A stretch of DNA of 64,000 bases from the NCBI RefSeq assembly GCF_014696925.1, contig NZ_JACJQY010000006.1:62001-126000 (forward strand), given 5' to 3'. Both the position numbers and the translations under genes were made by a program. Of the stretch, positions 17,879 to 29,105 are shown piece by piece. Positions within the stretch are counted from its first letter, which is position 1. Each line of letters starts with the position of its first letter. Origin of the DNA: Phormidium tenue FACHB-1050. Its GTDB lineage: Bacteria > Cyanobacteriota > Cyanobacteriia > Pseudanabaenales > Pseudanabaenaceae. The notes below the pieces were generated by a model. It saw nothing but the letters and a program-made list of their open reading frames with translations, had not been told where the DNA came from and did not search any database.

Positions 17879-18570
17879 ATGAATGATGAAATTATAGCGA
17901 TTTATTGCCTATGTTATGACATCCTCAAAGCAATGAATCATCGGGGTGATGAACAACAGCAGATGAGTGATGGCGAAGTTATGACAACAGCGATAGTTGC
18001 AATGCTGTACTACTGCGGCAACTTTGAGAAAGCGAGAAAAGCCATGTCAGAGCCAAAGTATATTCCGAAGATGCTCAGTCGTAGTCGTTTCAATCGCAGA
18101 TTACATAGAACTGAAGCAATGCTGTTGACAGTATTTGAAACGTTGGGACAGGTATGGAAACAGCTAAACATTGCATCTATTTACAGTATTGATAGCTTCC
18201 TGTTTGTGACAATCTCCGTATCCCAAAGTCAAAGCTCTATGATTTCGATGATGTATACCGAGGATATCAAGTCAGTAAGAAACGATATTTTTACCGTATC
18301 AAGATTCATTTGATGATTACGGGAGACAGGAAAACCCGTAGAGTTTTTTCTAACTTCGGGTTCATTTGCTAATATTGGGGCTTTGAGAGTCTTCTATTTT
18401 GCTTTATCTGAAGGTAGCACTGTCTATGCAGATAAAGCTTACAACGACTATGAGATTGAAGACTGGCTGCTAGAGGCGAAAAACATTAAACTTTTGGCTA
18501 TGCGTAAGCAAAATTCTAAAAGACCTGAAGCTGTTTATCTCCAATTCCTTCTTAATATTGTCATATCTGT
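17879..18570 (+). pseudogene. Decayed IS982-family transposase
   Basis: Residues 1-110 are intact IS982 transposase sequence (IIAIYCLCYDILKAM, MSDGEVMTTAIVAMLYY, FEKARKAM and MLSRSRFNRRLHR). A frameshift at about 18,200 moves the sequence to VCDNLRIPKSKLYDFDDVY and a second near 18,325 to LSEGSTVYADKAYNDYEIE and MRKQNSKRP. The C-terminal 60 or so residues are missing, the homology ending near the convergent DUF202 gene. With two frameshifts and a 3' deletion, no active transposase is expected. Confidence 0.85.
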
Positions 18571-18945
18571 CTACAGCATGAATGCCAAGCTTAGAATTCC
18601 TAAAACTATTACCACCACTGTGGTTATCCAAATCATTAAGCGATTAGGTCGATAGTCACCACGTTCAATCTGCCAGTAACTGTGATCGTGGCTCCACAAT
18701 GCAGATGCAATTACCACAATGCCAAATACAACCAATGCTATGCCAAGATTTTCAGAGTTAACAAAGAAATGTCGGCGGGGTATTTTCGGAGTGACTGTAA
18801 TCTCTAATTGCCTAACCAAAATACCAAATCGGGCGATCGCAAATCCAAATCCAATTAGGGAAATAGAAGTGCGTAGCCAAGCTAGAAAAGTTCGTTCGTT
18901 GGCTTGATGTTCGCGCTGACGGTCAATTTTAGGCGGTCTGGACAT
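18571..18945 (-). CDS. DUF202 (YidH-like) membrane protein
   Basis: 124 residues. The N-terminus RQREHQANERTFLAWLRTSI is the DUF202 signature, followed by three predicted membrane helices (SLIGFGFAIARFGILV, LGIALVVFGIVVIASALW and the final WITTVVVIVLGILSLAFML). The function is unknown; family members are small inner-membrane proteins. Start is ATG at 18945, 2 bp after the small upstream gene ends. Its 3' end abuts the IS982 remnant, so the last codons may have been reshaped by the insertion. Confidence 0.85.
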   Translation of the reverse strand: MSRPPKIDRQREHQANERTFLAWLRTSISLIGFGFAIARFGILVRQLEITVTPKIPRRHFFVNSENLGIALVVFGIVVIASALWSHDHSYWQIERGDYRPNRLMIWITTVVVIVLGILSLAFML

Positions 18946-18947
18946 TT

Positions 18948-19130
18948 TTAGTTGAACCTTAATCTTAAGTCTTGCTGAAAAGCCCTTTCCAAAATCGCTT
19001 TGACCTCTTCAATTGGTTCTGAAAATAGCACAATCACTCGTACTGCACCATACATATCCACATCAATAAGTTGATCCAGTAATAAATGCGCTTGGCGATC
19101 AACCGTATCATTAACTTTCACTGCTCTCAT
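18948..19130 (-). CDS. Small protein upstream of the DUF202 gene
   Basis: 60 residues, not recognised. The sequence (MRAVKVNDTVDRQAHLLLDQ, then VRVIVLFSEPIEEVKAIL) has a plausible mixed alpha/beta pattern. It starts at ATG 19130 and ends 2 bp before the DUF202 start, which favours a real co-transcribed gene. Function cannot be stated. Confidence 0.5.
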   Translation of the reverse strand: MRAVKVNDTVDRQAHLLLDQLIDVDMYGAVRVIVLFSEPIEEVKAILERAFQQDLRLRFN

Positions 19131-19590
19131 TTAGATGATCTCTACTGTAATTTAGATGTAGTTAGAAATAAAACTATAGCAAGTTGGGGTCTAGCGAGGT
19201 ACACCTAATCTCATTGAAACTTATACTAAAATAGGATTTAAGCTACTCGCTTGTAACTCATTAGTGTAGGAACTGCTATATACCAGTCTAAATATATCCA
19301 AATCACCCGATTCTATTGCCTCTGACAGATTTCTAATTTTAGTATTTAGATTTTATCTGAGTTTCATCCTCACTCTCACCTCTAGGGCATCTCATTTCTA
19401 GTTCTCATTTCTTTTTTTTTCTCTCCCTTCTAGTCTATCCTTACCGCTAGATTACTACCATTTTACTTTCATTTCTTTCCACGTAACATCAGATAGTTTA
19501 TCCAAACTCTATTAGTTTTGCTGTTTTAGGAATGTGACTGTGATAATAATGCAGGTTTTACTCACGCTAAAGTTACGCAAGGAAATCATA
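19131..19590. other. Intergenic region without a recognisable gene
   Basis: The 460 bp contain no convincing open frame on either strand. A pyrimidine-rich stretch at about 19,360-19,440 on the plus strand includes a run of T. I see no RNA gene or clear promoter beyond what the leftward small gene at 19130 would need. Confidence 0.4.
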
Positions 19591-19774
19591 GTAACTGCTC
19601 TTAGTGGTGCAGAAAACTTTTTGAGGTCTTATTTGAGATTTTATTTAGGTAAAATAGCCTCTTGAAACAGCCTATTTACAAGGCTTTGAATAAAGGCTAT
19701 TAAAATTTGTCTTAGGTTAAGACTACGACATAATGCGGGTTTCCAGACTTTTCTGCACCACTAAGGTAACTGCT
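19591..19774. mobile_element. MITE-like element with 17-bp inverted repeats and 9-bp target duplication
   Basis: Perfect 17-bp terminal repeats CTTAGTGGTGCAGAAAA (19600-19616) and its complement (19749-19765) bound a 166-bp non-coding element. The flanks are identical 9-mers GTAACTGCT (19591-19599 and 19766-19774), a clear target-site duplication. The interior can fold on AAATAGCCT/AGGCTATT-type arms. It encodes nothing and must be mobilised by a transposase supplied elsewhere, whose family is not evident from the termini. Confidence 0.85.
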
Positions 19775-19792
19775 TTAAAGGTTGTCAGCTAA

Positions 19793-19817
19793 AGCCTTGC
19801 ACTGAAAGTGTAAGGCT
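19793..19817. repeat. Short hairpin
   Basis: AGCCTTGCACT and AGTGTAAGGCT are separated by GAA and pair with one G-T mismatch. There is no T-run on either side, so a terminator role is weak. It lies just beyond the MITE. Confidence 0.4.
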
Positions 19818-19937
19818 ATGAACTAGCGTGTTGGGACAATAAATCATGTAAAACTTAATCTTTCAAAAACCAATTAAATAAATCATGCGATGGAGAGCAC
19901 ATTTTGCGCTTCATCTATTTTTATAAGAAATGCTGAT

Positions 19938-20858
19938 TTATTTGGAGGTAAGCCTGTTACCTAGACTTCGGTAATAAATTGTCCCAACGATCACAAAAAA
20001 TAAGATGTAAGCGATCGCCTGAACTAAATAGAGTTTGTCGGTATAGCCAAACAGAGAACTTAGGATTACCCCAGGAAATTTCTCGGCAGGTAAAACTTTG
20101 CTGCTATTCCAGACCATTCCGCCAAGAATACAAGAGTGTTCTCTGGCAAAATGCTCGTAATAAAAACAAATTGCTTCAGACTTGCGATCGCTTTGAGAGA
20201 GAATCCGTAAGGCAGTATCAAAATGTCCGAGCGCAGAAATTACTAAGCCTGAGACAATTGATAAGAGCATGAAGCCCATAATTTTGAAGAAGGCGCGGAT
20301 ATTAATCTGAATACCAAATTTGAATAATGCGATCGCGATCAATGTTGCGGCGGCTATTCCACTTACGGCTCCTATGGCTGGCATAAATCCTTCTTGAAAT
20401 TTTGCCGAAATAAATAAAACGATCTCAAAGCCTTCACGCAAAATTGCAAATAAAATCAGTCCGAAAATTCCTAACCCAGCTTTTTTGCCTTTGTCTAATA
20501 CATTTGCTAAAGAGCCTTCGATTTCCCCTTTCATCGCCCGACTTTGTTTGGTCATCCAGAGCAACATCCATGTCAACATGGCGATCGCGGCAACACTAAA
20601 AATACCTTCCAGCAATGGCTCAAGAATCGGCGATAGCGAAGGGTTGCTAGTACCAACGCTCTGCATAAACCAATTAAATAGGATGCCAACTATGGCACTA
20701 ATCAAAATCCCCGCTCCAATTCCCGCAAATACCCATCGATTAAGATGCGATCGCTTAGCTCGTTTGATATATGCCATAACAATGCCGACCACTAAGGCGG
20801 CTTCAACACCTTCACGTAAAGTAATTACAAAAGTTGGAAGAGTTAAACTGAAGTCCAT
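19938..20858 (-). CDS. FTR1 family iron permease
   Basis: 306 residues with about seven membrane helices. Two REGxE motifs (LREGVEAALV at about 15 and LREGFEIVLF at about 138) are the signature of FTR1/EfeU ferric permeases, in which they bind iron in transit. A C-terminal cyanobacterial extension (CILGGMVWNSSKVLP, FPGVILSSLFGY) precedes the last helix. The gene lies 63 bp after a helix-hairpin-helix lipoprotein gene and near a multicopper oxidase gene, all leftward. By analogy with fungal Fet3-Ftr1 and bacterial EfeUOB-type systems, the oxidase could convert ferrous iron for this permease. The start is ATG at 20858. Confidence 0.92.
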   Translation of the reverse strand: MDFSLTLPTFVITLREGVEAALVVGIVMAYIKRAKRSHLNRWVFAGIGAGILISAIVGILFNWFMQSVGTSNPSLSPILEPLLEGIFSVAAIAMLTWMLLWMTKQSRAMKGEIEGSLANVLDKGKKAGLGIFGLILFAILREGFEIVLFISAKFQEGFMPAIGAVSGIAAATLIAIALFKFGIQINIRAFFKIMGFMLLSIVSGLVISALGHFDTALRILSQSDRKSEAICFYYEHFAREHSCILGGMVWNSSKVLPAEKFPGVILSSLFGYTDKLYLVQAIAYILFFVIVGTIYYRSLGNRLTSK

Positions 20859-28851: not shown

Positions 28852-28883
28852 CACAAGTAACCTTGATTTATTGGTTTACGTTT

Positions 28884-29039
28884 CAAACTATAGAGATAAA
28901 TAATCAAGAAGTTTGAAAGTTCGTATTCAAAACGCAAAAAGGAAATGTCTTGGTTGGAATAGTGATTGCTAAGCTATGAAATGAAATCAATAAATATGGG
29001 ACTCTTTCTAAGTTCTTGATTATTTATCTCTATAGTTTG
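28884..29039. repeat. 27-bp perfect inverted repeat in a divergent promoter region
   Basis: Bases 28884-28910 (starting CAAACTATAGAGATAAATAA) recur exactly as the reverse complement at 29013-29039, with 102 bp between. Beyond the core, an imperfect GTTTGAAAG/CTTAGAAAG extension continues inwards. The pepSY and DUF347 genes thus read out of mirror-image sequence, which could give identical promoters or operators to both. It could also be the termini of a small insertion; no target duplication is visible. Confidence 0.7.
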
Positions 29040-29105
29040 TCTCATCACACAATATGAAGTTCAATTTGATGAGTGATTGTTCCAGATGAGACGAAATATG
29101 AAAAG

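Follow-up and report, generated by a model that had tools for sequence, protein, structure and literature searches.

What is the 166-bp sequence that lies between repeats in an intergenic stretch of Phormidium tenue FACHB-1050, and which enzyme put it there? Inspection of the window (the whole stretch of 64,000 nucleotides that was analyzed) found perfect 17-bp inverted ends and 9-bp direct repeats bounding an element of 166 bp (Table 1). The preliminary description of this DNA, made from the letters alone, had the lengths and coordinates of both repeats exactly right (17/17 and 9/9 positions). No open reading frame of 30 aa or more is contained in the element; one (19534-19665) enters it from the left flank. 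The end of a gene for an FTR1-type iron permease (19938-20858, minus strand) lies on one side of this intergenic stretch, and a small ORF and a DUF202 gene lie on the other. Based on the analyses below, we think that the element is non-autonomous, that it very probably derives by internal deletion from an IS4-type IS of about 1300 bp found in Pseudanabaena and other cyanobacteria, and that it was moved in trans.

Table 1. The element, its repeats, and neighboring features (positions in the window).
Feature	Position	Strand	Remarks
DUF202 gene	18571-18945	minus	neighbor of the MITE-bearing intergenic stretch
Small ORF	18948-19130	minus	neighbor of the MITE-bearing intergenic stretch
Host repeat receiving the MITE, ~170 bp without the MITE	19497-19843	+	uninterrupted copies in relatives
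Target-site duplication, left copy	19591-19599		GTAACTGCT; 9/9 match to right copy; single in the G024 empty site
166-bp non-autonomous transposable element (MITE)	19600-19765	+	geneless
Left terminal inverted repeat, 17 bp	19600-19616	+	CTTAGTGGTGCAGAAAA; identical to IS ends in relatives
Left subterminal imperfect palindrome GTCTTA-TT-TGAGAT	19626-19639	+	27 bp from end; IS transposase-3' end has GTCTCA-n-TGAGAC or similar, 26-28 bp
Right subterminal palindrome GTCTTA-ACC-TAAGAC	19709-19723	-	43 bp from end; IS transposase-5' end has a similar one, 43-46 bp
Right terminal inverted repeat, 17 bp	19749-19765	-	TTTTCTGCACCACTAAG; 17/17 complementary to left arm
Target-site duplication, right copy	19766-19774		GTAACTGCT; single copy in G024

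The element is a real insertion. In a genome of the same genus (G024), the same intergenic region is 460/467 identical (98.5%) over the junction, has one GTAACTGCT, and lacks the element, so we conclude that the 166 bp were inserted. Farther to the left in G024, the match picks up again at 99.7% over 295 bp, beyond a 1.7-kb insert. Elsewhere, this genome has just pieces of the MITE family, including 53 bp identical to the right end of the window copy. Because its site is empty and it has only such pieces, the insertion most likely occurred after the lineages of the window strain and G024 had separated. The preliminary description had called the transposition recent. The absence from G024 and flanks that are 98.5-99.7% identical are in keeping with this, but the event is undatable and the closest sibling copy seen is 95% identical. 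Its identification of a MITE with a clean 9-bp target duplication is borne out by the empty site, by equally long relatives, some of which have 9-10 bp duplications of their own, and by full-length ISs with identical ends. Perfect 17-bp inverted pairs spanning 60-400 bp were found in none of 40 simulated 64-kb sequences built with the base-to-base transition frequencies of the window, and no such pair in the real window other than the element has a 9-bp duplication at its flanks.

The MITE was found once in its own genome. No second copy was found there with a search using the whole element or with a search using its end at 0-1 mismatches. With up to 3 mismatches, the 17-bp end had 33 matches, two of which are the element itself and 31 of which have 2-3 mismatches. 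The reverse strand holds 24 of the 33, compared to 7 and 6 in two controls, an excess without explanation. Among the 31 weaker matches, 18 were inspected. Seventeen had no inverted partner at 4 or fewer mismatches, and the remaining one (L013) had a 4-mismatch partner 554 bp across that we took as chance. Five aligned weak matches had no sequence in common in their surroundings. After inspecting these 18 of 31, we rejected other copies in this genome. The element has the defining features of a MITE: it is shorter than about 500 bp, has no transposase gene, has terminal inverted repeats and a target duplication, and has ends in common with an autonomous element. It lacks a trait that is usual but optional, several copies per host genome, with one copy in this genome (G000).

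Related genomes have the copies that its own genome lacks. The preliminary description had named a lack of other copies, in this and in related genomes, as what would tell against its reading; a single copy was found in the own genome, but related genomes carry copies. An element search of 97 genomes (its own included) found some match in 28, many at the ends alone. Besides the copy in the window, there are nine nearly full-length 166-bp copies, 87-95% identical, in eight genomes of the genus (G006, G007, G012 with two, G018, G019, G022, G023, and G025). The copies in G023 and G025 have common flanks and were counted as one site. A copy that is 93.4% identical is on plasmid5 of Calothrix sp. 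NIES-4101 (L110, AP018278.1, 8276-8441), a plasmid typed as mobilizable in a different cyanobacterial order, and has no exact duplication. As it is as similar as the copies within the genus, its sequence makes horizontal transfer likely.

More distant relatives have similar ends and different interiors. We searched a collection with one genome per species for the exact-end pattern and found 17 stretches in 11 assemblies, which is a lower bound given that the search covered lengths of 155-185 bp and perfect ends only. The assemblies include two Pseudanabaena, two Nodosilinea (seven stretches, five of which are of a 168-bp sister type in Nodosilinea LEGE 07298), Phormidium, Shackletoniella, and Nostoc, and the rest are two Leptolyngbyaceae (three stretches), one Synechococcales, and one Prochloraceae MAG. 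Outside Pseudanabaena, the stretches belong to sister types of 155 or 168 bp, which overall have about 61-64% identity with the window copy but have ends that are alike. Longer types of 177, 196, and 197 bp are in G060, G003, and G001. After removal of duplicate or orthologous entries (L113, L122, L116, and L027), an exact duplication of 9 or 10 bp was present at 17 of 29 nonredundant MITE copies and absent at the other 12. Carriage by phages or viruses was rejected: there was no match in phages and, by the exact-end pattern, none in viral contigs.

The same 17-bp ends bound full-length ISs in other genomes. They are on seven fetched elements of 1294-1308 bp (L066, L054, L055, L056, L051, L043, and L063), from G016, G022 (three), G077, G093, and G034. 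Six of the seven have no end mismatch, six have an open frame of 394-416 aa, and four have an exact 9-10 bp duplication; the IS of G034 is broken, its longest frames being 239 and 201 aa. In G022 there are seven near-full transposase matches of equal score and seven places with a matching end. The IS copies on two plasmids of G022 are identical over all 1299 bp, and this identity suggests recent activity of the IS. In other genomes, stops break up many of the transposase matches.

The partner IS encodes a transposase of the IS4 type. Two of two proteins had the Pfam domain DDE_Tnp_1 (38.8 and 41.6 bits, cut-off 23). The best NCBIfam family was NF033591 (IS4_2), with 96-107 bits in 4/4 proteins, yet these scores are below its curated cut-off of 152. 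No relative with a solved structure was found by sequence at E 1. In four aligned transposases, D120, D183, and E284 are invariant, and we take these, from the IS4 family pattern, to be the catalytic DDE residues. Also invariant in all four are Y276, R279, E284, and K291, with the spacing Y-(2)-R-(4)-E-(6)-K. The IS4 family signature is given as Y-(2)-R-(3)-E-(6)-K (PMC2266710), so the partner has four residues between R and E and not three. As in the IS4 family, there is a single-ORF DDE transposase and a duplication of about 10 bp (9 bp at 10 and 10 bp at 15 of 25 nonredundant MITE and IS sites, which were chosen for an exact duplication of one of these lengths). By comparison with these full-length ISs in relatives, the driving transposase, which had at first been left as unknown, can be assigned to the IS4 type. 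IS982 was rejected as the mover: the full-length ISs with the ends of the element carry an IS4-type transposase.

The MITEs and the ISs were inserted into similar targets. We compared 25 nonredundant insertions (17 MITE, 8 IS), all selected for an exact 9- or 10-bp duplication. There was an A before or a T after the duplication at 36/50 positions (binomial p from 4e-12 to 8e-9, with the frequency of A at 0.25-0.32) and a G or C at the ends of the duplication at 41/50 positions (p of 8e-8, with G+C at 0.45). The insertions of both kinds form one target pattern, as expected if one enzyme made them.

The two ends of the IS are different from each other, and the MITE resembles both. Inside the 17 bp, the transposase-5' end continues with GTC and the transposase-3' end with CT in 5/6. 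A palindrome like GTCTCA-n-TGAGAC is 43-46 bp in at the transposase-5' end and 26-28 bp in at the transposase-3' end, and was present in 12/12 ends of six ISs when up to two departures were allowed. These palindromes may be a second, putative binding site for the transposase. The left end of the MITE resembles the transposase-3' end, and the right end resembles the transposase-5' end. In end-anchored comparisons with the six ISs, 3 to 165 of 2000 shuffles, depending on the IS, did as well as the MITE right end against the IS 5' end, and 14 to 512 of 2000 did as well as the MITE left end against the IS 3' end. With the ends swapped, the matches were mostly at the level of chance, with the MITE right end and the 3' ends of L066 (38/2000) and L054 (13/2000) as exceptions. 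We adopted the end-anchored comparison after the result with free end gaps was in; that comparison, in which alignments can slip, gave no consistent signal. Averaged over 11 ISs, 29/29 nonredundant MITEs favored the same pairing, a count that is not fully independent because the MITEs had been oriented by their similarity to the window copy. Both the six and the 11 ISs include L060, a shortened copy of 966 bp. With the spacer fixed at 3, the palindrome of the window copy was equalled in 0/300 shuffles at the right end and 91/300 at the left, and the test was significant in part of the 29 copies only.

We considered other origins for the element. A fixed regulatory or RNA repeat (a REP/BIME-like palindrome or a small RNA gene) with no transposon and a coincidental duplication deserves almost no credence. 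As a single DNA strand, the element does fold into a long hairpin whose stability far exceeds that of shuffles (z -5.8), and 10 copies allow a consensus fold that has internal stems. However, the empty orthologous site with a single copy of the duplication contradicts a fixed repeat, as do the exact 9-10 bp duplications at more than half of the nonredundant copies, and among the 10 copies just 1 of 52 predicted pairs had a two-sided compensatory change, with an unfavorable covariation term (+0.73). An Rfam search of the element returned nothing at the gathering score; based on this and the little covariation, a regulatory RNA was rejected. Capture or convergence, in which unrelated intergenic DNA came to lie between two IS ends and was mobilized in trans with no internal deletion, is unlikely. 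Farther in than about 25-35 bp from each end, the MITE resembles the IS weakly, and the middle of the window element had no convincing match among the interiors of 11 ISs (best E 0.92, positions 38-56). These two results make an origin as a deletion derivative less certain than use of the same transposase. Against capture, the IS has a different subterminal sequence and a differently placed palindrome at each of its two ends, and the MITE reproduces each end on the corresponding side, a pairing that was also better on average throughout the 29 oriented copies.

It is also improbable that the mover is encoded in the same genome and was lost from the assembly by collapse of repeats at contig ends. 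The assembly is a draft of 89 contigs (estimated to be 99.98% complete), and in G019 the IS copies are indeed broken at contig ends. Those broken copies still leave end fragments with pieces of the gene, whereas the genome of the window has no such fragments: there was no match to an IS4-type transposase at E 0.001 with one protein query, the best profile match was at E 0.48, and there was no end with 0-1 mismatches outside the element. The weaker end matches that were inspected, partnerless except for L013, also argue against a hidden copy. The search for a transposase gene with the same ends, which the preliminary description had proposed as a check, thus found none in this draft assembly and found one in the ~1300-bp ISs of relatives. 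The same profile had matches in 31 of the 97 genomes at E 1e-20. Among the nine genomes with a nearly full-length MITE copy, G022 and G019 have strong matches to the close type of transposase (in G019 as pieces, at contig ends), G023 and G025 have transposase fragments, and the other five (G000, G006, G007, G012, and G018) have no match at E 1e-20 despite their copy. In the 11 assemblies with exact ends, eight have a transposase match at E 1e-10; five of these are strong and near-full, with stops inside in 4/5.

Based on the exact ends, the duplication, the empty site, the copies elsewhere, and the full-length ISs with the same ends, we conclude that the MITE was in all probability moved by an IS4-type transposase. 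We infer that it was mobilized in trans by cut-and-paste, that it arose by internal deletion, and that its mover was later lost or not passed on. A full-length IS, then present in the cell, would have supplied the transposase, which would recognize the retained 17-bp ends and the side-specific subterminal sequences of the geneless MITE. DDE cut-and-paste would have moved the MITE in trans into one target, and filling in of staggered cuts 9 bp apart would have left GTAACTGCT on both sides. The mover would later have been lost or not inherited in the lineage of the window. The cut-and-paste route is stated for the IS4 family (PMC2266710).

By size, ends, and duplication, the partner IS looks like a candidate member of the IS10 subgroup. 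In the table of 'IS4 family goes genomic' (2008), the IS10 subgroup has 1200-1350 bp, CT ends, and a 9-bp duplication (PMC2266710). The partner is likewise about 1300 bp with CT ends and a single-ORF DDE transposase; unlike the subgroup as given there, its sites and those of the MITEs have both 9- and 10-bp duplications. Size and ends fit in most copies, and one IS copy of 1354 bp (L169) is outside the range. A sister IS group in the same cyanobacteria (L171, L173, L174, L175, and L178) is also similar, with about 1290-1321 bp, CT ends, and 9-10 bp duplications, but has different ends (CTGATTGACTGACAAAAGT or similar); the transposase of L173 also scored best with IS4_2 (139 bits, under the cut-off of 152). 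Plasmid relatives with about 33-36% transposase identity probably belong to this sister group. The end-pair search found no ends for L170 and L172. We suggest tentatively, and with more doubt than belief, that the partner IS and the MITEs are an undescribed cyanobacterial IS4-type subgroup defined by CTTAGTGGTGCAGAAAA ends, asymmetric GTCTCA-n-TGAGAC palindromes, and Y-2-R-4-E-6-K, whose MITEs passed between orders (from Pseudanabaenales to Nostocales, with a mobilizable plasmid among the carriers) and survive as orphans in genomes with no mover.

The miniature element Nezha reportedly goes with a different IS family. Like the present element, it is a MITE of cyanobacteria (Zhou et al. 2008). 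A text search of the literature, mostly open-access journals, did not find CTTAGTGGTGCAG in print, and among the matches listed (titles and abstract openings, mostly open-access) none of the cyanobacterial MITE literature was on this element. Like bacterial MITEs generally, as described in PMC10969869, the element is short and geneless, has the very terminal inverted repeats of an IS, and has a target duplication; nothing essential differs from that description, with a single copy found in the genome and a partner not found in the assembly. The element is of an ordinary kind, and the general picture of transposition is unchanged. For a cyanobacterial MITE that would otherwise be unassigned, the comparison identifies the most likely transposase family, and it provides a clean case of an orphan MITE, with an empty site in a relative and an insertion into another repeat. 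For annotation, the 17-bp end and the palindrome positions can be used to locate related MITEs and partner ISs across cyanobacteria.

The DNA that received the MITE is itself repeated. The host repeat of the window (without the MITE) is also represented by loci L131:410-654, L130, L132, L133, and L134. Uninterrupted copies are in G019 (three), G009, and G010, the orthologous one is in G024, and a partial copy is on contig C87 of the same genome as the MITE. In total, 13 of the 97 genomes (its own included) have whole or partial matches to this dispersed repeat, which is up to about 245 bp long. The copy L131 folds far better than shuffles (z -7.9), and an Rfam search of seven loci found no family at the gathering score. 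This intergenic repeat of Pseudanabaena may be a structured RNA or a further non-autonomous element. Terminator-like hairpins of differing sequence were seen by eye after some of its copies. Pieces at about 19175-19281 and 19366-19461 (within 19140-19470) recur elsewhere in several Pseudanabaena genomes, and the intergenic stretch around the MITE looks like a nest of repeats. An 11-bp pair, GTTGGGACAAT/ATTGTCCCAAC (19830-19840 and 19978-19988), was judged to be chance; its right arm is within the FTR1 gene.

Other mobile DNA was found in and near this region. The 1.7-kb insert in G024 (L129:790-2523, equivalent to window 19289-19295) encodes an IS5-type transposase (531-aa ORF, 431 bits, cut-off 275) and has an apparent 7-bp duplication, CTAAATA. 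In the window, a nearby IS982-like remnant (17879-18313) has a broken transposase (35.5 bits, cut-off 130), and the ORF at 18383-18655 may be a continuation of this broken IS982-type transposase. A second perfect inverted pair in the window (28884-29039) has no 9-bp flanking duplication. It is part of an inverted repeat at 28869-29054 with 51-nt arms that are 82% complementary, 27 bp of which are perfect (28884-28910 and 29013-29039), and 84 nt between the arms; this repeat is possibly another miniature element.
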